Virus record (IMG/VR): IMGVR_UViG_3300033491_000006
Span: 1-24,578 of that record
Source of the DNA: a virus
Direction: 5' to 3' (one strand)
Length of the DNA: 24,578 nucleotides
Made by a program: the position numbers and the translations under genes. Numbering within the stretch: position 1 is the stretch's first letter; every line of letters starts with the position of its first letter. Below the pieces are notes generated by a model that saw nothing but the letters and a program-made list of their open reading frames with translations, made no database searches and was not told the DNA's origin. This document shows positions 2,236 to 24,388 of the stretch, piece by piece.

Positions 2236-2700
2236 ATGAAACGTATGCTGCTTGCGGCAGGCATTGCCGCGTGTCTCGCTTTTTCTGGCTGCGCATCGAC
2301 CGGCTCACCGAAAATTCCAACGCCCCAGCAACTGGTGAGCGACTTCTGCCCGACGGTCAATGCCGACCTCAAACTTCTGGCCGCGTCACCGCTGCTCAAT
2401 GCTTCGCAACAGCAACTGTTGAATGGCGTGCCCGGTGACGCGACGCATCCCGGCATCATCGCGATCAACAGTGCGGTTTGCGCGGCCGGCGGTCAGATCA
2501 ATGTGACCGATCTGCAAACGCTCAACAACACGGCGTTTCCTGCGCTCATCGAGCTGGTCGGGGCGCTCCCGATGCTTCCGAATCAGCCAGCGATTCTGCT
2601 CGGCCTGACACTTGCTCAGCCGATCCTGAATCAGATCGTCGCGCAAGTTATGCCGGCGGCTCCTGCGGCCGCTAGTGCACCGGCCGCCGCGAGCCAGTAA
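2236..2700 (+). CDS. Secreted lipoprotein in the lysis block
   Basis: The ATG at 2236 (GAAGGA upstream) gives a 154-residue protein with a classic lipoprotein signal: basic MKR, a hydrophobic run and the lipobox FSGC, with Cys about residue 19. The mature part has Cys residues that may form disulfides, several hydrophobic helices and an Ala/Pro-rich C-terminus. It should be lipid-anchored in the periplasm, with no Lol-avoidance Asp at +2 (Ala follows Cys). Its stop overlaps the lipase start in a TAATG, so the two are coupled. An outer-membrane lysis role (o-spanin-like) or a lipase partner is possible; neither is proven. Confidence 0.82.
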   Translation: MKRMLLAAGIAACLAFSGCASTGSPKIPTPQQLVSDFCPTVNADLKLLAASPLLNASQQQLLNGVPGDATHPGIIAINSAVCAAGGQINVTDLQTLNNTAFPALIELVGALPMLPNQPAILLGLTLAQPILNQIVAQVMPAAPAAASAPAAASQ

Positions 2701-3299
2701 TGACGCCGCATGACTTCGCGCTGCTGGCGCAGGAAGCCTATTCCGTGGCGCCAGACATTGGCAAAGCGGATAGCGCTTCTCGCGCCATCGTACGTACGAC
2801 TGCGGACGGTCTGTGCGTTGCCTTCCCGGGATCGGACAACGCGGACTGCTGGGGTGCGGACTTCGACATTGTGCCGGTAGCCGTGAAAGGGGTCGGCGAG
2901 GTTCATCAAGGCTTCTGGAACGCCTGGCAGGCTATCGCACCACAAGTGGTGACCGCAATCGGCGATCAGCCTGTGACGCTTGTTGGCCATTCTCTAGGCG
3001 CCGCGATCGCGATTCTCGCTGCGGCATCACTGGTGATGGCGGGAAAGCCGCCGGCGGCTGTCTATGGCTTCGAGCCTCCGCGCGTGAGTCCCGGAATCGG
3101 TGTGCGGTCAGCGCTCTCCAAGGTGCCAGTTCATCTGTATAAGAACGGTCTCGACATCGTGCCGGATCTGCCGCCTAACTGGCAGCACGCCGCAACCCTG
3201 ATTCATATCGGCACGCCACAACTGCCTTTTCCCAACACGCTGGATCACCAGATTGAAAGGGTGATTCTCGCTCTGTCTGCGCAGTCTCCGCCAGCTTGA
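2700..3299 (+). CDS. Class 3 lipase-like alpha/beta hydrolase
   Basis: The 199-residue protein has the Lipase_3 layout. The nucleophile elbow GHSLG has Ser98, the acid is likely Asp152 in NGLDIVPDLPP, and the base is likely His183 in LDHQI. The VAFPGSD segment (about residues 40-46) would supply the oxyanion-hole region. No signal peptide is visible, so it would need release through the holin or act inside the cell. The ATG overlaps the lipoprotein stop (TAATG). In the lysis block it may cut membrane lipids and help open the outer membrane, as LysB esterases do in mycobacteriophages. That role is an inference. Confidence 0.86.
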   Translation: MTPHDFALLAQEAYSVAPDIGKADSASRAIVRTTADGLCVAFPGSDNADCWGADFDIVPVAVKGVGEVHQGFWNAWQAIAPQVVTAIGDQPVTLVGHSLGAAIAILAAASLVMAGKPPAAVYGFEPPRVSPGIGVRSALSKVPVHLYKNGLDIVPDLPPNWQHAATLIHIGTPQLPFPNTLDHQIERVILALSAQSPPA

Positions 3300-3354: not shown

Positions 3355-5679
3355 ATGACCACCGTTACTCTCGCGCCTCTGGTTAAGCAGCAGTTCAACC
3401 AGAATGGGATTCCGCTGGCCGGCGGCAAGCTGTTCGTCTACAACGCCGGAACGACAACGAAGGCACTCACTTACACGGACGCCACAGGCGACACGCCGAA
3501 CACCAACCCGATCATTCTCGACGCCAACGGCCAGTGCGGCGTCTGGCTTTTGCCAACCCTCGCGTACAAATTCATTCTGTCGCCGGCGACCGATACCGAT
3601 CCGCCGACGAACCCATTCTGGACGGTCGACAACGTAACGACCGTCCAGGGCGTCGCTGTCGGAGACATGACGGACGAAAAAGGCAGCGGCGGCACCTACG
3701 GATTCGCCGCAAACGTCGATTTCACACCCGGCACCACGACGCAACTGACGCTATCCCAGAATTACGGCAGCTCGGGCAATTTGTGGGTGACCTTCGACGG
3801 CACGGAGCAGGGCGCAGATACGTTTTCTCTGGGCGGCACGAACAATACCGTTCTGACGTTCAATGCCCCGATTCCTGTGGGGGTCCAGAAGGTCTACGTC
3901 AAAGGCGGCACTGCGCTTACGATCGGCACGCCTGGCGCGGGGACCGTCGGCGACGCCCAAATCAACCAGAGCAGCAATCTGTACATCCACGCCTATTCCT
4001 TCGTCGGTTCAAAGGATGTCGGCGCGCTGGGCAACGGAACGACCGATGACCATACAGCCGTTCAGAACGCCGGATCGCTGGCGTCGAGTTCTGGAAAGTT
4101 GCTACTCGTGACGCCCGGCACTTACCTTATCGGCTCGAGCATCGCATTCGCGGGGCCGGTCGAGTTCATGCCTGGGGCGCAGTTTGTCGTAAAGAGCGGG
4201 GCTGTCGTTACCTTCAACGGACAACTCACCGGCCCACTGACCAACATCTTCAGCGTGCAAACCGGGGGCAACATTGTTGTCAATCCGGGCACCACGACGG
4301 AAGGTTACCCAGAGTGGTTTGGCGCCCAACCGGGAAATTCCTCGTTCGACTGCGCACCGTATATCAACGCGAGCCTTTCCGTTTTCTCGGTTACGCGTCT
4401 TCAGAATACGGTCTACTACACAGCCACATCGGTCCTTATGGGGCAGAACGGGCAGTCGCTTGTCGGATCAAATCCAAATCTGACCCAAGGCGCTTTTAAT
4501 TCCTCAGTCATTCAGTGCCAAAGCGCCGCGGTTACGATTTTGCAGATCGGGCCAAATGTCAATCCTTACCCCGCGTCATTGCAGACGTCGATGGCGGTTC
4601 ACAACGTTGCGTTCTCTCGGGGTACTGCACCAGACATTTCCCAATCCGCGACGGGCATCAAGATTCAATACTGTTCAGGCGTATTGATGAAATGCGTCAG
4701 CGTAATTGACTCTGTTGAGTGCTTCCATCAACTCGGCTCAGCGTATGTGCGTTACGAGCATTGCAACGCGTTCAAGTTGACAGTCGGCATCAACGGGACA
4801 GATGCGTTCCACGGATTCAATTTAGACGGCAGTGCTTATATTGGTTTCTCTGACAGCGGAAATCCTTCGGTCCTGATGTACGACTGTCAGGTAAGCAATC
4901 TGCGCGACGCAGACACCACCTGGGCGCCGGGTAGTGACTATCAGGGTATGTTTGTCCATGGGCAGTACGGCTGGTCGGATGTCTGGATTTTTGATCTGGA
5001 AACGAATGGTGTCGGCACAGGGATAAACCTCGTTGGGACGGTGAACAATACAACGACGGCGGACTCGTTGAATAAACGCTTCTACGTCTATAACCCGATT
5101 CTCGATACGTGCGTTCTTGCGGGTATTTCGTTCACGAATATCAGTTCTTATGGCGATATTCATGTAATCGGTGGCTATGCCAATTGCAGCAACGCCCAAC
5201 CTAATCCGGTCGGAATCTCGTACTCGTCGTCGAACGGGAACGTCCAGATTTCGCAGTTCATGGTCGAGTGCAATAAGAACCACAGCACGATTGGTGTCGT
5301 GTCGTACGCGTCATCAAAAATGGTTCATCGCGACTGTTCATATCTCGAAGCTTTCGTGACACCCATCCAGCTTAATTCGACTTCACATTTCACATTCATG
5401 GATCAAGTGACGAATGATTCCAGCGCGTCTTCCAATGTGGCGTTCCTCGTGAACAACTGTAACCGGGGCTACATGAACATTGCACTTTCTGGTTACCCAG
5501 GCGCCTACGGAGGCGGGATCGACCTTGCCGATACGTCGATTCAGTACTGTGAATTCGCATGTTCGCGCATGGACCCTGGCGCAATCACCGGCGGCGTCAA
5601 GGTCGTCTACAACGGCACGCCGATCACCACGGCCGGCACTTTCGGAACCGGCAACCTCGCTTCTGGGATTATGAACTGA
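3355..5679 (+). CDS. Tailspike / tail fibre with right-handed beta-helix
   Basis: The ATG at 3355 gives 774 residues. The N-terminal about 100 residues look like a virion-anchoring domain common in such phages: GGKLFVYNAGTTT, then NPIILDANGQ, then YKFILSPA and a closing FWTVDNV. From about residue 221 DVGALGNGTTDDHTAVQ opens a pectate-lyase-type beta-helix, with many short Gly/Asn/Ser-rich strand repeats to the C-terminus. Such proteins bind and often cut surface polysaccharide. I cannot name catalytic residues or the substrate. A TTG at 3340 is an upstream alternative; the ATG is preferred because the conserved N-terminus begins there. The second tail gene follows 1 bp later. Confidence 0.88.
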   Translation: MTTVTLAPLVKQQFNQNGIPLAGGKLFVYNAGTTTKALTYTDATGDTPNTNPIILDANGQCGVWLLPTLAYKFILSPATDTDPPTNPFWTVDNVTTVQGVAVGDMTDEKGSGGTYGFAANVDFTPGTTTQLTLSQNYGSSGNLWVTFDGTEQGADTFSLGGTNNTVLTFNAPIPVGVQKVYVKGGTALTIGTPGAGTVGDAQINQSSNLYIHAYSFVGSKDVGALGNGTTDDHTAVQNAGSLASSSGKLLLVTPGTYLIGSSIAFAGPVEFMPGAQFVVKSGAVVTFNGQLTGPLTNIFSVQTGGNIVVNPGTTTEGYPEWFGAQPGNSSFDCAPYINASLSVFSVTRLQNTVYYTATSVLMGQNGQSLVGSNPNLTQGAFNSSVIQCQSAAVTILQIGPNVNPYPASLQTSMAVHNVAFSRGTAPDISQSATGIKIQYCSGVLMKCVSVIDSVECFHQLGSAYVRYEHCNAFKLTVGINGTDAFHGFNLDGSAYIGFSDSGNPSVLMYDCQVSNLRDADTTWAPGSDYQGMFVHGQYGWSDVWIFDLETNGVGTGINLVGTVNNTTTADSLNKRFYVYNPILDTCVLAGISFTNISSYGDIHVIGGYANCSNAQPNPVGISYSSSNGNVQISQFMVECNKNHSTIGVVSYASSKMVHRDCSYLEAFVTPIQLNSTSHFTFMDQVTNDSSASSNVAFLVNNCNRGYMNIALSGYPGAYGGGIDLADTSIQYCEFACSRMDPGAITGGVKVVYNGTPITTAGTFGTGNLASGIMN

Positions 5680-7364: not shown

Positions 7365-8492
7365 TCATGCACTTCGTGCCTTGATTTCGGTCCACTCTTT
7401 GCCCCGTGAATCGCGGTACAGAGCCGTCATCTCGGCTGATTTGTGCCCCAGAAGCGCCTGGGCGAACTCGGCGCCGTACTCGTCAGCGTAGAGGCGGGCG
7501 GCTAGAGACCGGATCTCATGAAACGTCGGCGGAGTCTTGCCCGGATCGACCGCAATCTTTGCCTGGTCACGGAAAGTTGCAAAAACGTCTGAAAAGCTGA
7601 CCACATGAGGGCTTCCGCCTGGTCTTGCTGTGCCAACATGCCGCAGGTGATGGATCACGTGCTTGGAGACGATGTTGTCGCGGCATTCCCGTATTACATC
7701 GCCGATCGTCAGGCCATCCAGCGCCTTCAGGCCGACGGTCAGAGGGATTTTCAATCTCGTCCGGCCCTGACTCTTTTTCTGTTCGACGTAGAGGAACCCG
7801 TCCTTCACGTGGTCGAACAGCATGCTTTTTACATCCTCCCGGCGCTGCGCCGTGACCAGTGCCAACATGAAGGCGCGGGCGGCCCAACCCATCAGCGGAT
7901 CCTTTCTGGCCTCCGCAACGACCTTCCAGAAGTCCTCGAGGGTCAATCTTGAACGCAGGACATCTCCTTTCGTTCTCTTTACGGACGAAACCGGATTCTT
8001 TCCGGCCTCAATCAAACCCTCTCCAATCGCCTCGTTGAAGAGGTCGACCAGACGGCTGCGCATCTGCACGGCGTAGGTGTCACTCACCTCCGCGGCGAGC
8101 TTCTTCAGAAAGTCCCTGATATCCCTCGGCGTCACGACATTGACGCGCTGCGCCGCGAAAGGCGCGCGTTTGATGGCCTTCAGGTAGCTGCTGACGGTCG
8201 AGCGGGAACCTTCGTTTTCCGTCCTCTTGGCATAGATAGCCTCGTACTCATCACACCACTGGGAGACGGTCTTCATGCCGCCGTCGATCTTATTAATGAG
8301 CGCAACTGCTCCCTTGCGGCGCTCCAGCTCGGCGTTCGCGGCGCGAGCCTCTGATGAAGCGACCTTGAAGTCGCGCCCCAGACCATACGTCGCCTTGGTT
8401 TCCGGGTGCCGGAACCAGTAATAGCCCTTGGAGTTCTTATACAAGTTGTCGGGCCAGTTACGGCGCGCCGCGATTCGTCGTCTAGCTGCCAT
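7365..8492 (-). CDS. int: Tyrosine-recombinase integrase, lambda type
   Basis: The ATG at 8492 gives 375 residues. The N-terminus (NLYKNSKGYYWFRHPETK then GLGRD) matches the lambda Int arm-binding domain. A core-binding domain follows at about 70-175 and the catalytic domain after about 180. Active-site residues can be placed: Arg217 (TAQRRED), Lys240, His325 and Arg328 (FHEIR), His350 (LLGHKS) and Tyr359 (ALYRD). It should insert and excise the phage at an attachment site. The start overlaps the excisionase stop by 11 bp. It is the last major gene of the leftward early operon, as in lambda. Confidence 0.95.
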   Translation of the reverse strand: MAARRRIAARRNWPDNLYKNSKGYYWFRHPETKATYGLGRDFKVASSEARAANAELERRKGAVALINKIDGGMKTVSQWCDEYEAIYAKRTENEGSRSTVSSYLKAIKRAPFAAQRVNVVTPRDIRDFLKKLAAEVSDTYAVQMRSRLVDLFNEAIGEGLIEAGKNPVSSVKRTKGDVLRSRLTLEDFWKVVAEARKDPLMGWAARAFMLALVTAQRREDVKSMLFDHVKDGFLYVEQKKSQGRTRLKIPLTVGLKALDGLTIGDVIRECRDNIVSKHVIHHLRHVGTARPGGSPHVVSFSDVFATFRDQAKIAVDPGKTPPTFHEIRSLAARLYADEYGAEFAQALLGHKSAEMTALYRDSRGKEWTEIKARSA

Positions 8493-11299: not shown

Positions 11300-12006
11300 G
11301 ACTCTTGCTCCTTCGCCTCGCGGGCGATTCGGTTGACCTGTCTGGTGATTGCGCCCTTGAGTTGGACCAGCTTGGCAAGCTCCGGCGAGCGCGACCGGGG
11401 ATGATTGCGACGTGCGAGCTCGCCGCGGTGCACGAGCTCGAGCGCGTCGAGCGTGATCTTTTCGAGTTCCGCCGTGCGCCGGCCGGGCAGGAAGCAGACC
11501 ACATGGCCTTTCGGGATCGGACCGTTCGCGGCTTCCCACACCAGACGGTGCACGCCAACCCAACGTCGCGCCGGCACCGGGTGGTCGTCGTTCGTTTTCT
11601 GCTCGAGGTAGCCGTCTTTGCTGATTCGATACGATCCGATCGGCACGTAGTTGTGCTGCGCCGCGCCGCTCATCGAGCCTTTCTTGAACTGTGTACGACG
11701 AGAATTCGGATGAGTGCCGCAGATACCCTTGACACCTTTATTCCATGACGTCTGGCCTGACTTGAACCGCGTCGAGCCTCCACGCTGGCCATCTGTACGG
11801 CCCGCGAGCGGTCCCGCAAGATAGGCTTCAGACTTGCGCAAGCCCATTCCGAGTGCTTTCTGGTAGACGCGCCCGACACTTAGACCCATTGACGCGGCCA
11901 GAGTCGGCGTGTGCGCATCTGGATACTCAAGCGTCAGACGTTCCTTTTCTGCTTCGGTCCACTTGTGGCGGGGCGCGGTAGTCGATCCGGGTTTGCGCTT
12001 CGTCAT
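11296..12006 (-). CDS. HNH endonuclease-family protein with N-terminal HTH
   Basis: The ATG at 12006 (ATGA overlap with the DUF1643 gene) gives 236 residues. Residues about 12-60 look like a homeodomain-like HTH (WTEAEKERLTLEYPD, LAASMGLSVGRVYQKA). Two FKxG-type DNA-contact modules follow (FKSGQTSWNKG, FKKG). The HNH-type region spans VGVHRLVWEAANGP, then GHVVCFLPGRRT and ITLDALELVHRGELARRN, a common phage variant in which the classic central DH-N residues are replaced. Cutting activity is therefore uncertain. It may be a mobile homing-type gene or a phage DNA-processing factor. Confidence 0.84.
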   Translation of the reverse strand: MTKRKPGSTTAPRHKWTEAEKERLTLEYPDAHTPTLAASMGLSVGRVYQKALGMGLRKSEAYLAGPLAGRTDGQRGGSTRFKSGQTSWNKGVKGICGTHPNSRRTQFKKGSMSGAAQHNYVPIGSYRISKDGYLEQKTNDDHPVPARRWVGVHRLVWEAANGPIPKGHVVCFLPGRRTAELEKITLDALELVHRGELARRNHPRSRSPELAKLVQLKGAITRQVNRIAREAKEQES

Positions 12007-12488
12007 GCTGCCCACTCCATGAGTTGAGTGTCATACCCGAGCATCAGCGGATGCTTCGGGTCACCTCCCTTTGTGAAGCCGAATATCTTCACTGGCTTGC
12101 CGGCGCCGAGAATGCGATGCGCCAGCGTGTCGAGATGTGGCCGCAGCGCCGCGGGCAACTTCGTGCGATCTCCCCAGCACGGGACAAGCAGGTCCGCGTC
12201 CGCGATGATCTGGCCAAGATGCATGTCGTTGAATGGGCCGACCGGATCGAGAACTCGCGAGAGCTCGCGAACGTCGCGCGCACGGTATGCGAACGGGTTG
12301 CCGGCGACGTACTTGCGCGCGCCGAGCAAACGCCCGAAGCCGCGCCACTTCATGTCGGTCTGGTCCGGGATGATCGAATCCGCCCACGACGGATTAACGC
12401 CAAAGAACGCGACCACGATTCCGACAAGCTGCAACTCGCGCTCGAGGCGGTACCGGTATGTGCCACATTCGCTGATGATCGCGGTCAT
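12003..12488 (-). CDS. DUF1643-family protein
   Basis: The 161-residue product has the DUF1643 hallmarks: FFGVNPSWAD near the start, KWRGFGRLLGARKYVAGNPFA shortened here to the key VAGNPFAYRA element, DPVGPFND, and a VPCWGD segment. The family is frequent in phages and mobile elements and its biochemistry is not settled. The ATG overlaps the reverse-transcriptase stop (ATGA), so it is co-translated with the DGR; a link to retrohoming would be speculation. Confidence 0.85.
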   Translation of the reverse strand: MTAIISECGTYRYRLERELQLVGIVVAFFGVNPSWADSIIPDQTDMKWRGFGRLLGARKYVAGNPFAYRARDVRELSRVLDPVGPFNDMHLGQIIADADLLVPCWGDRTKLPAALRPHLDTLAHRILGAGKPVKIFGFTKGGDPKHPLMLGYDTQLMEWAA

Positions 12489-13810
12489 TGTTTGACCTTC
12501 GTGCGGTATGTCTGCGTGAACGTCCTGTTGACGACGTGTCCTCGGTACCGAACGACGTTCGCGATTCGAGCGCGATCGTGATGGCTCGCCGGCGCCTGAC
12601 CGAGCAAGCCGAAATAGCTGTTAGCGACAGGCAGGAAGTCTCCTTCATTGACCTGCGCCACGCGGCGAATTGCTTCGTTCACAGTGCGGCGGCGCGTCGT
12701 GCGGGACCATGGCTTGATCACGTGGCCGACGAAGTCCACGCCGCGCGCGATCGGCTGAAGCACGGTTTTCTTCGGATTGAGCCGAACACCGAGGCGCGCC
12801 GGCAGGAAAGCGTCGACCTCGGCCAGCACCGCGTTTAGCCAGTCGGCAGACGGGTGCAGGAACAGGAAATCGTCCACATAGCGCACGTAGTAACGCGCGC
12901 CGAGCTGGTGTTTTGAGCGCTGGTCGAGCACGTCGAGATAGACGTTGGCGAAGAACTGTGACGACAGGTTGCCGATCGGCAGGCCGAGATGATCCGGCTG
13001 GCTAGTCAGGCGCTTGTGCGGCGGCACACGATCAATCAGCACCGGGTCGCCGCGGAACTCGAAGTTGGTTCGCGGATCGTGCATAAGCACGGTGTCGGTC
13101 AGATTCATCCACCACGCTTCATTGATCTTGCGAGCGAGCAGCTCGCGCAGCTTCAGTTTGTCGATGCTGACGAAGAAATTCGCAATGTCGCACTTCAGGT
13201 AGTAAGCCGGCCGAGACCAGTTCTGCGTAATGCTCCGGATCATCGCCTCGAGCTGCTCTGCGGCATAGAGCGTGCCGCGACCAGGAATGCATGCGCAACT
13301 ATTGGCGATGAAAGAGTTTTCGAAGCGCGCCGCGATGCGGTTGTAAAGCAGGTGGTGAACGACGCGATCGCGAAAGTCCGCCGCCCACACTTCGCGCGCC
13401 TTCGGACGTGTCACGACGAAACAGATCGAGCGGCCCGGCTGATACGAGCCGTCGATCAGTTCGTCATGCAGCTGCGACAGGTTACGTTCGAGGTTCTGTT
13501 CGAATTCGAGTGCGTTTCGCGTGTTTCGCTTTGTGCGACGGCAGTCGAAGTACGCGAGAACGAGCTCTTCGAACGTGAGAGCCTCGCTTCCAGCATCGTA
13601 ATAATCTGCGGACCGCGCGAACCCGGCCTTTGTTGTTCTTGTTGTTCGCATTCTGGTTGCCATTTGTGAAATTCTGGTACCAAGCGTTGTTGGCCGAGTA
13701 CTGCGTTCATTCGCACTATCTACGTCGCCAGGCCGAAGGCTATCGCCGATCGACGAGGAAACTGCACCAGACCGATCCCGGTTACTCCCGGTGGTATCTG
13801 TGATGTGCAT
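12485..13810 (-). CDS. Diversity-generating retroelement reverse transcriptase
   Basis: The protein copies the TR RNA into mutated cDNA that replaces the VRs. With the ATG at 13810 (SD AAGGAT) it has 441 residues. Motif A is Asp208 in YYLKCDIANFF. Motif B is LPIGNLSSQFFAN (277-289), the IGxxxSQ form typical of DGR enzymes. The catalytic box is YVDD (311-314) and LNPKKT follows near 344. There is no maturase or endonuclease domain, which argues against a group II intron. Residues about 35-69 are read from the TR in another frame. ATGs inside the TR (13663, 13651) are alternative starts but have no ribosome site. The true core begins near residue 78 (LTFEEL). The DUF1643 gene overlaps its stop. 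Confidence 0.95.
   Translation of the reverse strand: MHITDTTGSNRDRSGAVSSSIGDSLRPGDVDSANERSTRPTTLGTRISQMATRMRTTRTTKAGFARSADYYDAGSEALTFEELVLAYFDCRRTKRNTRNALEFEQNLERNLSQLHDELIDGSYQPGRSICFVVTRPKAREVWAADFRDRVVHHLLYNRIAARFENSFIANSCACIPGRGTLYAAEQLEAMIRSITQNWSRPAYYLKCDIANFFVSIDKLKLRELLARKINEAWWMNLTDTVLMHDPRTNFEFRGDPVLIDRVPPHKRLTSQPDHLGLPIGNLSSQFFANVYLDVLDQRSKHQLGARYYVRYVDDFLFLHPSADWLNAVLAEVDAFLPARLGVRLNPKKTVLQPIARGVDFVGHVIKPWSRTTRRRTVNEAIRRVAQVNEGDFLPVANSYFGLLGQAPASHHDRARIANVVRYRGHVVNRTFTQTYRTKVKQ
13605..13706 (-). repeat. DGR template repeat (TR)
   Basis: The 102-bp unit lies between avd and the RT core. Its coding strand holds about 35 A residues. In the reading frame of the targets it contains ten Asn codons, all AAC or AAT, which is the expected design for A-directed mutagenesis. 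The end nearest the RT (about 24 bp, from GGCCGGG to GTCCGCAGA) has almost no A and would contain the homology start (IMH*-like). All three VRs match it across the full 102 bp outside the A positions, except one base in VR2. Confidence 0.96.
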
Positions 13811-13860
13811 GTCGGTATCCTTGTGAGATAGCGGTGCGACCAGATTAAATCGCATAGACC

Positions 13861-14232
13861 TCACCGCCTTGACGATGAAGTAACGAGCGACGATGCGGAT
13901 TGCTTCTTCCATCCACCGGCCTGTTTGCCCACTTGTTCGGTTAGCGCGATCGCGGCCGCGTATTGCTTGGTCGCGATGAACCGCATGTCTCTGGACAACC
14001 TGAGCAGAAGATTGACCACTTCAAGACGCTCGAGCAGATCGTTCAGATGCGGTACCTTGTCCATTGCCGCATTGGCGCGAAAGATCAGCGTTACGATCTT
14101 CAGCGTCTCCGCTCGAATCTCTCCGCCGAGCGATTGCTTGAAATCGCGCGGCATATGGCGAGTCGATTCCGTGACCTCTCGGAAGAGGTCGTACGCGACC
14201 TTGTAAATGGGCAGGGCGGTGGTAATGGCCAT
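13861..14232 (-). CDS. avd: Avd-like DGR accessory protein
   Basis: The 123-residue product is almost all helical and basic, as expected for the four-helix Avd/S23-like proteins that assemble into a barrel, bind the RT and nucleic acid and are needed for cDNA synthesis. Visible family features include LPIYKVAYDLFREVTES at the start, then FKQSLGGEIR and the long helices LLERLEVVNLLLRLSRDM. It sits between VR1 and TR, the same order as in Bordetella phage BPP-1. No Shine-Dalgarno is visible before the ATG; it starts 16 bp after the stop of the VR1 gene in an A/T-rich stretch, so coupled translation is likely. Confidence 0.9.
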   Translation of the reverse strand: MAITTALPIYKVAYDLFREVTESTRHMPRDFKQSLGGEIRAETLKIVTLIFRANAAMDKVPHLNDLLERLEVVNLLLRLSRDMRFIATKQYAAAIALTEQVGKQAGGWKKQSASSLVTSSSRR

Positions 14233-14248
14233 GGTTAATTTTTAAATT

Positions 14249-14836
14249 TCAAAAGTCCAATCTGCGGACCGCGCGAACCCGGCCTTTGTCGCTCTTGCCG
14301 CCCGCATCCTGGGTGCCACTCGTGAAATACTGGCACCAAGCGTCGCCGGCCGAGTACTGCGTAGACGTCCAGTGCCACTCTCGGATGAACAGGTCAGGAA
14401 CGTTCGCGTAAAGCACCGCGCTTTCTCGCTTCGAGGGTACGTAATAGTCACGGTGACATTCGAACTCCACCTCGCTGCACTTGCGAGCTGCAGGATGATC
14501 GCCGGTGGCAATCAGTGCCTGCGTGTTTGCGTATCCGTCGAACTCGTCCTTGGCGCCCGGCACGTCAACGCCGTAGCCTCCCCACTCCACGTCGCCGAAG
14601 GCGCCGATCGTGTCGGGGGAGATGATCAACCAGTACGGCCGGCCATCGGCATGCCGCGCGAGGCCACCATTGAACCCGCCTTGGCCGGGCCAAACTTCAC
14701 CGATACGCGGAACGCTGCGCACAGCTTCTTCGGTACGGCCCATGACCTTGTCGAGCCATGCGTTGATGGCAACATCCTTGGGCACGCTCAGCTTGCCGCC
14801 GTGGAACGGAACTTCGATTTCGCTTGTGTTGCTCAT
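14249..14836 (-). CDS. DGR target protein 1 (DUF1566/Lcl-like, C-type-lectin fold)
   Basis: The ATG at 14836, with GGAGA upstream, gives 195 residues. The open frame extends further upstream, but only as a shadow of VR2. Visible elements are VWPGQGGFNGGLAR, WGGYGVDVP, DGYANTQALI, DYYVPSKRE and the hallmark WHWTSTQYSA before the variable part. The VR covers about residues 159-192, and the protein ends RAVRRLDF. The fold displays the variable residues on a rigid scaffold, so this is a probable ligand binder. There is no signal peptide or membrane segment. It lies directly before avd. Confidence 0.92.
   Translation of the reverse strand: MSNTSEIEVPFHGGKLSVPKDVAINAWLDKVMGRTEEAVRSVPRIGEVWPGQGGFNGGLARHADGRPYWLIISPDTIGAFGDVEWGGYGVDVPGAKDEFDGYANTQALIATGDHPAARKCSEVEFECHRDYYVPSKRESAVLYANVPDLFIREWHWTSTQYSAGDAWCQYFTSGTQDAGGKSDKGRVRAVRRLDF
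14261..14362 (-). repeat. DGR variable repeat VR1
   Basis: VR1 aligns with the TR without gaps over 102 bp. There are 15 differences and every one is at a TR A (13 to G, 1 to T, 1 to C). All ten TR Asn codons are changed (to G, D, Y, S, T, D, G, G, S, D). Confidence 0.96.
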
Positions 14837-14898
14837 TGATGCTTTCTCCAATGGTTCGATGCGATCGGTCGTGATGCGCCTTCGAAATGATTGAATTT

Positions 14899-15519
14899 CT
14901 AAATTTTGACTCTGCGGACCGCGCGAAGCCGGCCTTTGCCGTCCTTGCCGTCCGCACCCTGGTAGCCATCTGCGAAACCCTGGTACCAAGCGCTGAGGGC
15001 CGAGTACTGCGTGCTTGTCCAATACCACTCGTCGGCGAAGGACTCTGCGCCGCCTTCACGGAACAGTTCGACGGGCGTCTGGCCCGGCAGGTGGATCGAA
15101 TACGGATAGCCGACCGGCAGACTGCTCGGGTTGTCGCCGCTGCGGTAGACGTAGTTCTCTTCGGTGGTCGGCTTGAAGCCGCGGTAGAGCAGCTCGACCT
15201 GATCGCGCGCGCCGATGTGCCAGTCGTCGAAACCGCCGATACGCAGCTCGAGCACCTGTTGTGCGATCTCGCTGCCGGCCTCGGCCATCGCCTTGGTATT
15301 GGCGAGTCCGTCGAAGAAACTGTCGGCTCCCTCGATCAGCTTGTAATCGGGATGCCAGATGACCGGACCGAGATCGCCTTCGTTCTTCGGCGCGACGACT
15401 TGTGCGAACACGTCACCGTTGAAGGTGATGATGCCGGCGAAGTAACCGCCTTCCCACGGCGTGCCGAAAACGGTCGGAACTTCCTGCTTTGCCAGTGGCA
15501 GATTTGAGATTGCGTTCAT
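14899..15519 (-). CDS. DGR target protein 2 (DUF1566/Lcl-like, C-type-lectin fold)
   Basis: The ATG at 15519, with GGAG upstream, gives 206 residues. It shares the plan of target 1: an N-terminal WEGGYFAGII strand, VIWHPDYKLIEGAD, DGLANTKAMAEAG, a longer middle section with IGARDQVELLYRG (the ARDQ/RE helix of the family) and an extra PVGYPYSIHLPG loop. WYWTSTQYSA precedes the VR (about residues 170-203), and the end is RAVRRVKI. No export signal is visible. It is the first DGR gene of the local cluster, 62 bp upstream of target 1. Confidence 0.92.
   Translation of the reverse strand: MNAISNLPLAKQEVPTVFGTPWEGGYFAGIITFNGDVFAQVVAPKNEGDLGPVIWHPDYKLIEGADSFFDGLANTKAMAEAGSEIAQQVLELRIGGFDDWHIGARDQVELLYRGFKPTTEENYVYRSGDNPSSLPVGYPYSIHLPGQTPVELFREGGAESFADEWYWTSTQYSALSAWYQGFADGYQGADGKDGKGRLRAVRRVKI
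14911..15012 (-). repeat. DGR variable repeat VR2
   Basis: VR2 aligns with the TR over 102 bp with 16 differences at TR A positions (13 to G, 2 to T, 1 to C). One further difference is not at an A: a coding-strand G-to-C at 14928, changing Val to Leu. All ten Asn codons are changed. Confidence 0.96.
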
Positions 15520-17676: not shown

Positions 17677-19245
17677 TCAGAACGCGGTTGCCAGACGTTC
17701 GTTGGCCGCCTCGAGGTTCATGTCGAGCAGCCACGAAAGAACGACGCTCTCGTGCACACGGTAGTTCGTCGCGAGAGTCGCGATGATCTCGTCGTCGGTG
17801 GGGCGCTTCGGTGCGGCGGCGCGACCAGTCCGGGCGGGTGTCTTGACCGGCTGCGCGGCGGCCACGGCAGGCGTGCTGGCGGCCGCAGTCGGCGCGAAGC
17901 TGGCTTCCTGAGATGCGGTCTGTTCGGCGGCGCACGCCTGCGCCTGACGAGTCTGTTCGAGTCGTTCTTCCTCGACCTTCTTGTGCTGCTCGATGCGCGA
18001 CGTCACGGCGAGCTTGAAGTCATCGGCCGGCTTCTGGATAAGCGTCTGCAGGTCACGGAACAGGAAACCGTATGCTTCGTCCTGTGGCCGGTACCAGTCG
18101 AGTTTCGAGCGCATCTCGCGCGCGGCCGCGTCGGCGGCGATCTTGCCGTTGGCAACGGTCGTATCGATCGATTCATGCAGGCTCGCAAGCGTGCGCTTGT
18201 TCTTCGCCGCAGCAACAAAGTCTGGAGCCGCAATATCGAGGCGCACCATGCTGAGTTCCGCATTCAGCGCCGCAACATGGTCGGCGAACCGCTTGCGGCC
18301 GTCGGCGATGATCTGATCCTTGATCTCGCCCTTGCGCTTCGTCACCAGTTTGTCGAGTCCGAGACGCTTCTCGCGCAGCTGCGCCTTGATGTGGTCCAGC
18401 GTGCGCATCAGATCGTCGATGCTGGCCGTCTGCGAGATCGCGGCGTTCTTGGCGACCTCGAGTTCCTTCTCGGCCTTCTCGCAGAACTTGACTGTTTCTT
18501 CCGCGTCCGCGAAGTCCTGATCCGTTTGCAGATCCGTCTTGATGTTCGCGATGAACTGTTCGGCGGCCGCCTTGAAGCGCGGCAGATTGCTCGTGACGAC
18601 CTTGCCTTCGATCTGCACGGCGAGAGTCGGGAGGCCCATGATCACTTCCGCTTGGGGCTTCTCGGCGAGTTCGCGCGGTTTATACTCGGCCAGATCCTTC
18701 TCGAACTGGGCCCAGCCTGCGCGCAAGCGTTCGAACCACGCCGGATCTGGCTTGACCCACATCGAGGCCATGTTGTCCCGCGTGCCGTCGGAACAAACGA
18801 AAAGCAGTTTGCTGGCGCCGCTGACCATCAGCAACTGCTGCGCCTGTGGCATGTAGGCGTCGGGCAGTTCCTTGCGCTTGATCGAGTCGAACAGCGCCTG
18901 GTTGAACTGCTTATGCTCGAACGCAATGGTTTCATCCATCGTCAGACCGTCGAACGATCCCGACAGCAGACCTTCAGAGCCGACGACCGGGTAAAGATCT
19001 TCGCCGATGGCTTCTTCGACGAGCGGCCGGGCAAGCGCTTCAACTTCGTGACCTTTGTCGAGGATGTGCTCTTGGAACCAGTCGCTGTATTCCTTCGCCG
19101 TGCCGGTGTGCTTCATGTGAAGCAGCTCGTTGCGCTTCACGTTGGCGGACAGGCCGAGCATCGCCGCGGCTTCGCTAGAGCCGAAATGCTTGTGGCGAAA
19201 GGCAAGCCATTCGTCGGAACCCTGAATTAGGTCGTGAGTTTCCAT
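17677..19245 (-). CDS. YqaJ/lambda-exo-type recombination exonuclease with long C-terminal extension
   Basis: The ATG at 19245, with GGAGCG upstream, gives 522 residues. The first about 200 form a PD-(D/E)xK nuclease: GSDEWLAFRHKHFGSSEAA, a Glu69 helix, Asp99 in GSFDG and Glu110-x-Lys112 in FEHKQ. It should degrade one strand of a DNA end so the annealing protein can pair the other. Residues about 230-430 are a long helical/coiled region, then an Ala/Pro/Thr-rich linker and a small C-terminal helical domain (EIIATLATNYRVHESVVLSWLL). The annealing gene lies 5 bp upstream. Confidence 0.92.
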   Translation of the reverse strand: METHDLIQGSDEWLAFRHKHFGSSEAAAMLGLSANVKRNELLHMKHTGTAKEYSDWFQEHILDKGHEVEALARPLVEEAIGEDLYPVVGSEGLLSGSFDGLTMDETIAFEHKQFNQALFDSIKRKELPDAYMPQAQQLLMVSGASKLLFVCSDGTRDNMASMWVKPDPAWFERLRAGWAQFEKDLAEYKPRELAEKPQAEVIMGLPTLAVQIEGKVVTSNLPRFKAAAEQFIANIKTDLQTDQDFADAEETVKFCEKAEKELEVAKNAAISQTASIDDLMRTLDHIKAQLREKRLGLDKLVTKRKGEIKDQIIADGRKRFADHVAALNAELSMVRLDIAAPDFVAAAKNKRTLASLHESIDTTVANGKIAADAAAREMRSKLDWYRPQDEAYGFLFRDLQTLIQKPADDFKLAVTSRIEQHKKVEEERLEQTRQAQACAAEQTASQEASFAPTAAASTPAVAAAQPVKTPARTGRAAAPKRPTDDEIIATLATNYRVHESVVLSWLLDMNLEAANERLATAF

Positions 19246-19250
19246 GCTTG

Positions 19251-20150
19251 TTACGCTCCCTGATTGCCGTTGTCCTGCGCCCACGACCGGATTTCTTTCT
19301 TCTGCGATTCGGTCAGCGACGCACCTTTGGTTTCGATGAACGCGATCATCTTTTCGGGCGTCTTTCGACCGGTCGCGACGACGGTCTTCCAGTCGTCCTT
19401 GTTCTTGTCGAACTTCTCCTGGTCGTAGGTCACCTTCTCGGTGGCTTGAGAAGAAGCTGCCGCACGATTACTGTTTCCCTGCTGTTCCGTGTGGGACGAC
19501 TGACCGGAATCTCCCTCTGCACCGCCCTGACCGTCGTCGTCTTCACCTTTGGTGGACATGCCGGATGCCGCTAGCAGGGTGTAACGCTGCAGGTATGTGA
19601 TCGTGCTGCCGCCCTGTTGCAGAACGTTTTTCTTTCCGCTGTTGTCCGGAGGGCCTTCCATCGACACTTTCTTCGAATGCCCCATGACATGCGTCACGAT
19701 GCAATCGACCTCGATCTTTCCCGGGCTTTGACGGATATCCCAGTCATAGGTAAGTCCGTGCGCCCCCATGGCGGGACCAAGAACATCGGTGACGTCTGAC
19801 AGTTCGGCGTGCCTGTAGCCGACAAAGTCGCCGTCCTTCGTGTTGTAGCCGACGGCCTTGCGCTTGAAAATCGGCGGGCAGGTACGCTTGAACTCGGTCA
19901 TCGCCGCGACGAACGCCTTGCGTGCTTCGTTTGCCTCCCAGCGCTGCTGCAGTTCCATCAATTTCTCAAGACGATCGAGATCGGCGTTCGTCTGGATCGC
20001 CAGGCGCAGCAGATCGGCGGGGGTCGTGAGAGAGATGCCCGTGCCGTGGTTGGTGGAAAGAGCCGATTGCTGCTGCGCAACCGGAGGCCGCGCCGTCGGC
20101 GTCTCTGAGGTATCGACGTCGATGACGTCGGCCATGGTTGCGGTGTTCAT
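19251..20150 (-). CDS. erf: Erf-family single-strand annealing protein
   Basis: The 299-residue protein should anneal complementary single strands made by the neighbouring exonuclease. Family signs are RWEANEARKAFVAAMTEFKR, then the FVGYRHAELSDVTDVLGPAM and AHGLTYDWDI strand region, VTHVMGHSKKVS, and the conserved GSTITYLQRYTLLAASGM followed by an acidic GEDDDGQGG stretch. A low-complexity Ser/Gln linker and a C-terminal helical domain (KMIAFIETKG) follow. The start overlaps the KTSC gene stop (ATGA). Confidence 0.92.
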   Translation of the reverse strand: MNTATMADVIDVDTSETPTARPPVAQQQSALSTNHGTGISLTTPADLLRLAIQTNADLDRLEKLMELQQRWEANEARKAFVAAMTEFKRTCPPIFKRKAVGYNTKDGDFVGYRHAELSDVTDVLGPAMGAHGLTYDWDIRQSPGKIEVDCIVTHVMGHSKKVSMEGPPDNSGKKNVLQQGGSTITYLQRYTLLAASGMSTKGEDDDGQGGAEGDSGQSSHTEQQGNSNRAAASSQATEKVTYDQEKFDKNKDDWKTVVATGRKTPEKMIAFIETKGASLTESQKKEIRSWAQDNGNQGA

Positions 20151-22205: not shown

Positions 22206-22221
22206 GTTCTCCCGTGAGAAC
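22206..22221. repeat. Short hairpin between VR3 gene and the next gene
   Basis: GTTCTC and GAGAAC pair perfectly around a 4-base loop. It lies about 30 bp after the VR3 end and contains the ribosome site of the following gene. It may regulate translation, or act as a structure near the retrohoming site as in BPP-1. Confidence 0.5.
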
Positions 22222-22239
22222 TACGAAATAAATAAATTC

Positions 22240-22734
22240 TTAAATTTTGACTCTGCGGACCGCGCGAACCCGGCCTTTGACGTTCTTGCCGTCCGCAAAC
22301 TGGAAGCCATATGCGAAACCCTGGCACCAAGCGCCGTAGGCCGAGGACTGCGTGCTCGACCAGTACCAGGAGGGCGCAAATTTTTCGGCGATCGTCGCGT
22401 AGCAGAGGTTCAGCTCACGCTGGGCCGGCAGATAGAAATCGGTGTGTCCGTCTTTCGAGTACTCCGCGGCCCAGGCGGCGGCCGGGTGCTTCGAAGTCGC
22501 GCCAAGAAGTGCCCGCGTGTTCGCGGCACCGTCGAGCCGGCTGTCGCACTCCGGAACCTTCATGCCGTACGGACCCCACTCGAAATCCATGCCTTCGTCG
22601 AGCGAAGCGATCAGGTGGTAGTCGGGCGCGTCGCCTTGGCCGGGCATCAGGCCGGCGTAAATGCCGCCTTGGCCCTCCCAATAGACGCCAAGGCGTGGTG
22701 CGACGAGAACGGGTTTGTCTTGGACTTCGGACAT
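22240..22734 (-). CDS. DGR target protein 3 (remote DUF1566/Lcl-like target)
   Basis: The ATG at 22734, with GGAG upstream, gives 164 residues, the shortest of the three targets. It shares VYWEGQGGIYAGLMPGQ, then WGPYGMKVPE, DGAANTRALL, HPAAAWAAE, DFYLPAQRELNLCYA and WYWSSTQSSA before the VR (about residues 128-161). The end is RAVRRVKI. It has no signal peptide. It is the second gene after PL and lies about 7 kb from the RT and TR, so mutated cDNA must reach it in trans along the genome. Confidence 0.92.
   Translation of the reverse strand: MSEVQDKPVLVAPRLGVYWEGQGGIYAGLMPGQGDAPDYHLIASLDEGMDFEWGPYGMKVPECDSRLDGAANTRALLGATSKHPAAAWAAEYSKDGHTDFYLPAQRELNLCYATIAEKFAPSWYWSSTQSSAYGAWCQGFAYGFQFADGKNVKGRVRAVRRVKI
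22252..22353 (-). repeat. DGR variable repeat VR3
   Basis: VR3 aligns with the TR over 102 bp with 18 differences, all at TR A positions (10 to G, 7 to T, 1 to C). Nine of ten Asn codons are changed. It shares with VR2 the last codons and the A/T-rich flank after the repeat (AGAGTCAAAATTTA). Confidence 0.96.
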
Positions 22735-23734: not shown

Positions 23735-24388
23735 TCAATGTCGAATATTTTTTGATCGCTTTTCCCCGACTCTTCGCGCCGCACGTTTTTCCTCGGTACG
23801 TGTGGCGAGGTGGCTCTCAGCATCCTCCATGGCTCTCGCGGCCTGCTCGCTGATGCTCTGCATCGCGGGTGAGGACTTTACCGCCTCGTCTTTCTTCAGA
23901 GGGGTCAGTTTGCCACTTTCCGGCGCTCTGAGTTGGGAAAAAAGCACGCGCACTGCATCAAAAGTTTCACGCGGAGCGTCTCGTTTGTATGCCTCCCGGA
24001 TAGCCGCAATCGCGTCCTGAACATAGGCCGGCAAAAGCGCATCCACATACTGTTCGGCTTGAGATCGGGCTTCCTCTTCAGTGAGTGAAGACTGATTTTT
24101 TGCCTCAAATACGGCGGTTGGAACCTTGTTTCTGTCGAGCTGCACGTAGTCGATGCTGTGCTTTGGCTCGCGGCCAGTCAGCAGCCAGTCGGTGGTGACA
24201 TTGAACTCGTGCGCCAACTTGGCGAGGGTCCCCATCTCTGGCGTCGATTTTTTCCCCAGGATTCGGTTGATGGTGGGCTGTGGAACACCCGTCTTTTTGC
24301 CGAGCGCACTTTGGCCGCCGCGCCCCCTGTACAGCGGGTTTGCCTGCATTAGTTCGTTCAGTCGATCGCCTACATCATCTTCTTTCAT
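23735..24388 (-). CDS. CI-type phage repressor without a cleavage domain
   Basis: The ATG at 24388 gives 217 residues. Residues about 25-70 form a Cro/CI HTH: GQSALGKKTGVPQPTINRIL then a TLAKLAHEFNVTTDWLLTG helix pair. The C-terminal 130 residues are helical and charged and do not show the Ser/Lys protease domain (S24/LexA) of lambda CI, so RecA-driven self-cleavage is unlikely. It should hold PL and PR off in the lysogen. No Shine-Dalgarno precedes the ATG, and the promoter -10 lies 7 bp upstream, so the mRNA may be leaderless as for lambda cI. Confidence 0.88.
   Translation of the reverse strand: MKEDDVGDRLNELMQANPLYRGRGGQSALGKKTGVPQPTINRILGKKSTPEMGTLAKLAHEFNVTTDWLLTGREPKHSIDYVQLDRNKVPTAVFEAKNQSSLTEEEARSQAEQYVDALLPAYVQDAIAAIREAYKRDAPRETFDAVRVLFSQLRAPESGKLTPLKKDEAVKSSPAMQSISEQAARAMEDAESHLATRTEEKRAARRVGEKRSKNIRH

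Follow-up and report, generated by a model that had tools for sequence, protein, structure and literature searches.

The question raised by virus record IMGVR_UViG_3300033491_000006 of IMG/VR (24,578 bp, analysed whole and called the window here) is whether its diversity-generating retroelement (DGR), which has the genes of phage BPP-1 in the BPP-1 order, also has the template RNA of BPP-1 and its kind of target. We consider it likely that it has neither, and that in this DGR, which belongs to a temperate phage, the structured RNA RT-15 and the template repeat (TR) are the 5' and 3' parts of a single folded template RNA, with early genes as the targets.

A repeat search of the window showed one stretch in four copies, TR and three variable repeats (VR1 to VR3), which lie on the minus strand together with avd, the reverse transcriptase (RT) gene and three target genes (Table 1). 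TR has 35 A among its first 102 positions. Over these, VR1 differs from TR by 15 substitutions and VR3 by 18, every one at A, and VR2 by 17, of which 16 are at A and one is G>C. Altogether 49 of the 50 changes in 3 x 102 bp fall at a TR A (36 A>G, 10 A>T and 3 A>C); the counts and the spectrum are exactly those of the initial annotation of this locus. The hypergeometric chance of that many changes at A is 9e-9 for VR1, 3e-8 for VR2 and 1e-10 for VR3. VR2 and VR3 carry an additional T>G two bases past the 102 bp, at the end of the TR/VR homology. The third target gene, with VR3, is not within the coordinates (12485-15519) given by the initial annotation. The initial annotation had also claimed a complete DGR with one template and several targets, had proposed an RT profile with a TR/VR search as a check, and had named broken catalytic residues in the RT as evidence to the contrary; the profile matched, TR and three VRs were found, and the RT is open and keeps YVDD. 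Avd, which matches its family, scored below the cut-off of 80 with NF033474 (64.5 bits, E 9e-18). The element is a real, complete DGR with RT, Avd, one TR and three C-type-lectin (Lcl_C/DUF1566) targets. Against NCBIfam the RT gave 91 bits with the group II intron RT model (cut-off 300) and 43 bits with NF038233 (cut-off 235), the single retron model to match; at a score so far below the cut-off, it falls outside the retron RT family.

RT-15 (RF03018) was found between avd, whose end it overlaps, and TR, with a score well over the gathering score of 82 and a 3' end 2 nt past the TR start. The layout of the template RNA is not that of BPP-1: the structured RNA is on the 5' side of TR, whereas in BPP-1 the Phage_DGR RNA (RF03022) lies 3' of TR, between TR and brt. 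Phage_DGR had no match in the window at E 0.5 and none over the gathering score in 18 relatives, BPP-1 being positive in the same search. RT-15 was present in 17 of these 18 relatives, the eighteenth (L019) being cut before that stretch, and the Rfam search did not find it in BPP-1 or in the distant L165. Its end falls 0-3 nt past the TR start in 16 of the 17; in the exception, L097, the TR call is shortened by a contig end. All but one of the RNA's own stems are more than 88% paired in an alignment of 100 sequences. A reverse search with RT-15 alone gave 35 places over the cut-off in 30 of 398 Pseudomonas genomes, and among 369 genomes of the class of genome G039 it gave G039 itself only. The loci read from this search numbered 31 (30 from Pseudomonas and that of G039, some of the genomes being also in the set found through the RT); five places over the cut-off without a locus and three under it were left out. 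Both avd and RT occur in all 31, and an A-only TR/VR pair lies within 3.2 kb in 30. In 29 of the latter, RT-15 extends 1-3 nt beyond the TR start; the thirtieth is a cut locus to which the script's reckoning of the end is inapplicable. Five Pseudomonas genomes (G011, G012, G014, G240 and G397) have two RT-15 places each, and in such genomes two templates could meet in one cell. RT-15 and its accession were unmentioned in the literature searched, which did not include the original description of RT-15 or most subscription papers.

The alignment of 100 sequences came from a survey of loci found by RT search, namely 80 viral loci (kept from 286 relatives), 80 bacterial contigs (kept from 82), the window and three named phages, 164 in total. 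Around each RT a script sought a template whose copies differ at one base type only, with a score that favours A-only matches. Several loci are the same phage in two collections, and 100 sequences were left at 95% identity. A-only TR/VR pairs were found in 148 of the 164 loci, window included, with 337 VRs and 4317 changes at A to 73 elsewhere. All 337 VRs lie upstream of the RT and on its strand, and 45 loci have VRs more than 2 kb off, 48 such VRs in total. Among the 16 loci without a TR are contigs that end close to the RT, as well as seven distant RTs (43-51% identity). When C, G or T was the free base instead of A, matches appeared in 2, 22 and 8 of 45 A-positive loci; the G matches probably come mostly from VR1, a repeat within the scanned stretch that has many A-to-G changes.

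The covariation in this alignment indicates that a long-range helix joins RT-15 to the TR 3' end. The consensus of the 100 loci has a conserved segment of RT-15, NNAATCTG, which Rfam draws unpaired and which is complementary to CAGATTNN, the TR 3' end with two further bases. The Rfam model ends at the TR start and excludes this partner strand. The helix has 8 bp, spans about 230 nt and encloses the RT-15 main domain and the whole TR; it juxtaposes an invariant G-U, just 3' of its 5' strand, and an invariant UCCG, just 5' of its 3' strand. In a Python count over 98 loci, 717 of 784 cells were paired; 2000 permutations gave no more than 664, and sliding the strands no more than 363. With all 100 sequences, 91.1% of 799 cells were paired, compared with 82.0% after shuffling and at most 46.4% after sliding, kinship between sequences being kept in the slid versions and lost in the shuffles. 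Six of the eight pairs show changes on both sides, the pair just outside TR being GC in 47 sequences, UA in 28, CG in 12 and AU in 6, and none of 500 shuffles attained any of five helix measures. Seven or eight pairs were also counted in 29 of the 31 loci found through the RNA, by a generous count that takes the best-pairing candidate.

Table 1. Features of the DGR locus and of neighbouring genes in the window.
Feature	Position	Strand	Evidence or remark
RT-15 structured RNA (RF03018), 189 nt, proposed 5' part of template RNA	13704-13892	-	Rfam, 168.6 bits, E 3.7e-41
Long-range helix, 5' strand, UUAAUCUG	13841-13848	-	covariation on 100-sequence alignment
Long-range helix, 3' strand, CAGAUUAU, last 6 nt of TR and 2 nt beyond	13601-13608	-	covariation
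Template repeat (TR), 104 bp	13603-13706	-	A-only match to three VRs
DGR reverse transcriptase	12485-13651	-	RVT_1 E 4e-16, phrog_1423 E 7e-117, YVDD in translation
avd, 123 aa	13861-14232	-	bAvd E 2e-14, over cut-off; phrog_3206 E 2e-32
VR1	14259-14362	-	in target gene 1
VR2	14909-15012	-	in target gene 2
VR3	22250-22353	-	in target gene 3
Target gene 1, 195 aa	14249-14836	-	Lcl_C E 1e-4, below cut-off
Target gene 2, 206 aa	14899-15519	-	Lcl_C E 3e-6, below cut-off
Target gene 3 (remote), 164 aa	22240-22734	-	Lcl_C E 7e-7, below cut-off; 8.6 kb upstream of TR
30-nt AT-rich block after VR1	14229-14258	-	family AT content
30-nt AT-rich block after VR2	14879-14908	-	same place relative to VR
30-nt AT-rich block after VR3	22220-22249	-	same place relative to VR
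HTH repressor-like gene, upstream end of operon	23735-24388	-	HTH_3 E 3e-7
YqaJ/RecE-like nuclease and ERF annealing protein, between target 3 and targets 2/1	17677-20150	-	phrog/profile matches
Tyrosine integrase, downstream of DGR	7365-8492	-	Phage_integrase E 7e-16

On the other side of TR, the first position with similarity to the RT ranges from 50 nt before to 35 nt after the TR end across all 148 loci, and there is therefore no room for a spacer of the BPP-1 type; a structured spacer RNA between TR and RT was not found. The start codon of the window RT is uncertain: the ATGs at 13651 and 13663 are inside TR, and the frame stays open past 13912. In 48 of the 148 loci TR contains an in-frame stop, which excludes a start upstream of it, and an in-frame ATG lies inside TR in 47 of these 48 and in 121 loci overall. 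In 109 RTs, synonymous conservation is 0.71-0.78 through TR and just past it and 0.57 in the next bin, thus reaching background within about 40 nt of TR; farther in it is mostly 0.34-0.60, with single bins of 0.67 at +240 and 0.68 at +624. A spacer-like RNA within the RT gene was rejected on the absence of an Rfam match and on this drop past TR. The running of TR into the RT is not new by itself, because the accessible text on the Pseudoalteromonas phages ACA1 and ACA2 already reports such an overlap, with TR read as an N-terminal extension of the RT and an antireceptor as the target, unlike the targets here (PMC10612066). As regards the BPP-1 core order claimed initially, the gene order VR-avd-TR-RT stood and the arrangement of the RNA did not.

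In the mechanism that we propose, RT and Avd would bind RT-15, and the helix would place the TR 3' end beside the invariant G-U that follows its 5' strand. Complementary DNA (cDNA) would start at the TR 3' edge, with a 2'-OH in RT-15 close to this G as the candidate primer, on the pattern of retrons. Copying, with errors opposite A, would stop where the closing stem of RT-15 begins, which would fit the TR 5' edge, and the cDNA would then replace the VRs, each marked by the shared 3' end (initiation of mutagenic homing, IMH) and an AT-rich block. RT-15 may in this way both recruit the enzymes and prime the copying. Retrons have a structured RNA, the template and the RT in that order, with a helix that joins the 5' RNA to the template 3' end; a conserved structure 5' of the template, a helix and a following RT are likewise seen here, with the difference that this RT is not of the retron family. 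We put forward, tentatively, that such elements form a second RNA class of DGR, with a retron-like layout and priming from the RT-15 5' side, that diversifies early intracellular proteins and not receptors. The RT-15 family would thereby gain a place in a mutation machine, and an RNA element held central to DGR copying could sit on the other side of the template; the base pairs named in Table 1 allow a change-and-rescue study of the copying start. A literature search on retron-like priming or early targets, mostly outside subscription papers, found no such layout among the matches listed.

The flanks of the VRs also differ from those of BPP-1, where the accessible text describes a GC-rich hairpin with a GRNA loop after the VR (PMC3240598). 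No such hairpin follows any of the three window VRs, and it follows only 4 of 224 VRs in the family; with the BPP-1 control positive, it was rejected as a target mark. Other short, GC-rich hairpins are more frequent after VR1 (47 of 99) than after VR2 (25 of 96), and follow 11 of 29 remote copies and 14 of 100 TRs. The 30-nt block after the VRs has a mean AT content of 0.64-0.69 (224 VRs, all classes), against 0.41-0.49 after TR and 0.40 at 3498 control open reading frame (ORF) ends, and is possibly the target mark that replaces the BPP-1 hairpin.

New A-only changes had been suggested as a sign of activity, and they were seen in relatives. Two loci (L039 and L040) have 14 differences in 7,384 aligned bases; every one falls at a TR adenine, and a single VR holds them all, the remaining two of the three VRs being identical. 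L056 and L057 have 41 differences in 2,876 bases, of which 19 lie in one VR, every one at a TR adenine, and L030 and L080 have 90 in 11,593, with one VR that has 17 at A and one elsewhere between 150 identical bases on each side. The second VR of this last pair carries an indel and was left out of the count; the L080 VR about 670 nt upstream of TR has a one-base shift and two registers, and VRs can evidently gain indels too. The VRs are identical in nine further near-identical pairs, most of them one phage in two collections. For the window phage no new change was found. A second IMG/VR record, G001 (53,747 bp), includes all of the window and departs from it at a single base, 17848, which is not in the DGR. 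A 253-bp overlap of its two ends, with one difference, indicates that G001 is probably a complete genome. The VRs of G001 and of the window are identical and therefore add no proof of activity for the window phage. Recent A-only change is shown for relatives, not for the window phage.

The mutation pattern is similar to that of BPP-1. Among non-redundant loci, A before G was changed in 13 of 1121 cases, across several codons, the first A of AAC was changed in 69%, and A before C, once changed, mostly became G. For the BPP-1 RT, the accessible text gives G misincorporation of 26.8% at NAC and 0.08% at NAG (PMC12875486). Because its neighbour-base bias is so close, the enzyme seems to work like the BPP-1 RT; selection on the target proteins may add to this bias. 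BPP-1 further shares with the element the RT, Avd, A-only mutation, the C-terminal VR and the gene order, and differs from it in that its target is the tail protein Mtd and that its TR adjoins avd, with 144 nt holding a structured RNA between TR and brt. In that phage, according to the accessible text, priming is by an adenine within the 3' spacer, which also recruits the RT and Avd (PMC12875486).

The window phage is temperate, with its target genes in an early operon between repressor and integrase. Among the 148 loci, the integrase lies downstream in all 51 where one was detected, the repressor upstream in all 34 that showed one, and the recombination genes upstream in 36 of 38; tail or packaging genes were found in three, downstream and on the opposite strand. 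Remote VRs lie between repressor and avd in all nine loci showing both. In six complete phages (G001, Cruim01, Magia, LPPA56, QDWS and Haboob, the last over 50,000 of 50,033 bases) all 16 VRs lie in the early region and none was found outside it. The family targets have a median of 197 aa (333 ORFs, with start codons picked by rule and 4 of the 337 VRs left out for want of a whole target ORF), and a hydrophobic N-terminus was seen in 24 of 333 and a hydrophobic stretch in 27; by this hydropathy rule they are small, mostly soluble C-type-lectin proteins, the VRs being C-terminal and Lcl_C below the Pfam cut-off in all three window targets. The AlphaFold model of target 1 has a predicted local distance difference test score (pLDDT) of 94. 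A similar fold is predicted for an uncharacterised 186-aa protein of Pseudomonas phage D3 (BFVD Q9MBK5, E 1.6e-6).

The targets would be made with the early genes, and this suggests that they act within the cell: their most likely role, at slightly less than even odds, would be to bind, variably, molecules of the host or of a rival phage in an infected or lysogenic cell, for counter-defence or superinfection control and not for adsorption. This would mean that phages diversify early, non-tail proteins. The accessible text of the main DGR survey describes most viral targets of three clades as tail proteins (PMC8144416), and DGRs with several DUF1566 targets are already known, as the accessible part of another paper relates (PMC6642488). 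The Burkholderia phage Magia belongs to the same family, with an RT 71% identical to that of the window; the accessible text of its paper already names a potential DGR, with two short targets (47 and 57) and no RNA element (PMC7883833), whereas three targets were found here. DGR terms were not found in the papers on Cruim01/Aurca01 and Medea1.

Several observations weigh against this picture. The window forms seven of the eight helix pairs, the outermost being U-U; 33 of 100 sequences lack pairing at columns 67-363; and two sequences dropped from the Python count for off anchors were kept in the 100-sequence analysis. The primer, start and stop of copying are the parts that the mechanism supposes. 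Depositors' RT starts vary, from 94 nt before the TR start (Magia) through inside TR (Cruim01) to 12 nt (Haboob), 51 nt (LPPA56) and 91 nt (QDWS) past it, and the window has the same VRs as its one near-identical record. The role proposed for the targets is drawn from their gene position and size and from the hydropathy rule, and the closest solved fold of target 1 is an adhesin domain (8q4e, the Legionella Lcl C-terminal domain, E 2.4e-6). One alternative is an ordinary BPP-1-type DGR in which RT-15 is an extra and a 3' spacer-like RNA overlaps the RT coding sequence, in keeping with the gene order, the raised bins at +240 and +624 and the late QDWS start; this we regard as very unlikely, as it is at odds with the lack of Phage_DGR matches, the fall of synonymous conservation elsewhere soon past TR and the covarying helix that ties the TR 3' end to the 5' side. 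It is also quite unlikely that RT-15 and the helix serve translation or processing control of avd and RT and not copying: the RNA ends within 3 nt of the TR start in nearly all loci of both sets, and its partner strand is the TR 3' end, where copying must begin, set against a 3' strand that extends past TR towards the RT and the frequent ATGs inside TR. Such control could coexist with a role in copying.

An inactive relic with fixed VRs is highly improbable: the identity of the VRs in the window and the second record would agree with it, but the RT is open with YVDD, the RNA is intact and relatives differ mainly at VR adenines. As for the targets, their being virion or surface adhesins for host range, as in BPP-1, is rather unlikely. 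The fold closest to Legionella Lcl, the tail fibres among the viral neighbours in fold, and the host range proposed in the accessible text of the Magia paper (PMC7883833) speak for adhesins; the small window targets (164-206 aa) among early genes, the confinement of VRs to the early region in six genomes and the lack of a signal peptide or membrane helix in most targets by hydropathy speak for the intracellular role.

Relatives without a DGR provide a natural control. A Cruim01 target protein found 62 loci, 56 of them with an RT; of the six without, two end early, and in four, which lack avd, the target is followed directly by an HNH gene. Counting the phages Aurca01 and Medea1, the DGR-less cases total six. 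The HNH gene fills the avd-TR-RT site of relatives, starting at roughly the VR1 3' end and reaching nearly to the RT C-terminus, of which 24-29 residues remain by clear match in five cases and a longer, mixed match in L243. There are two kinds, 34-36% alike and with a nearly common right breakpoint, one at L181 12204-12695 (Aurca01), L182 28092-28586 (Medea1), L184 6855-7343 and L243 2042-2530, the other at L239 6906-7280 and L201 6701-7081. The 12 VRs of these phages match the TRs of relatives with three non-A changes, and the DGR losses therefore look recent, or the VRs may have been rewritten by another phage in the same cell. With regard to such action in trans, a relative of their HNH gene was found in one of 398 Pseudomonas genomes (54% identical, limit E 1e-40).

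Two further genes of the window were noted. A class 3 lipase-like gene (2700-3299, plus strand; Lipase_3 E 6e-15) lies in the late region, and a DUF1643 gene (12003-12488, minus strand) overlaps the RT end by four bases; DNA similar to the region of the latter is present in two Rhizobium phage records.

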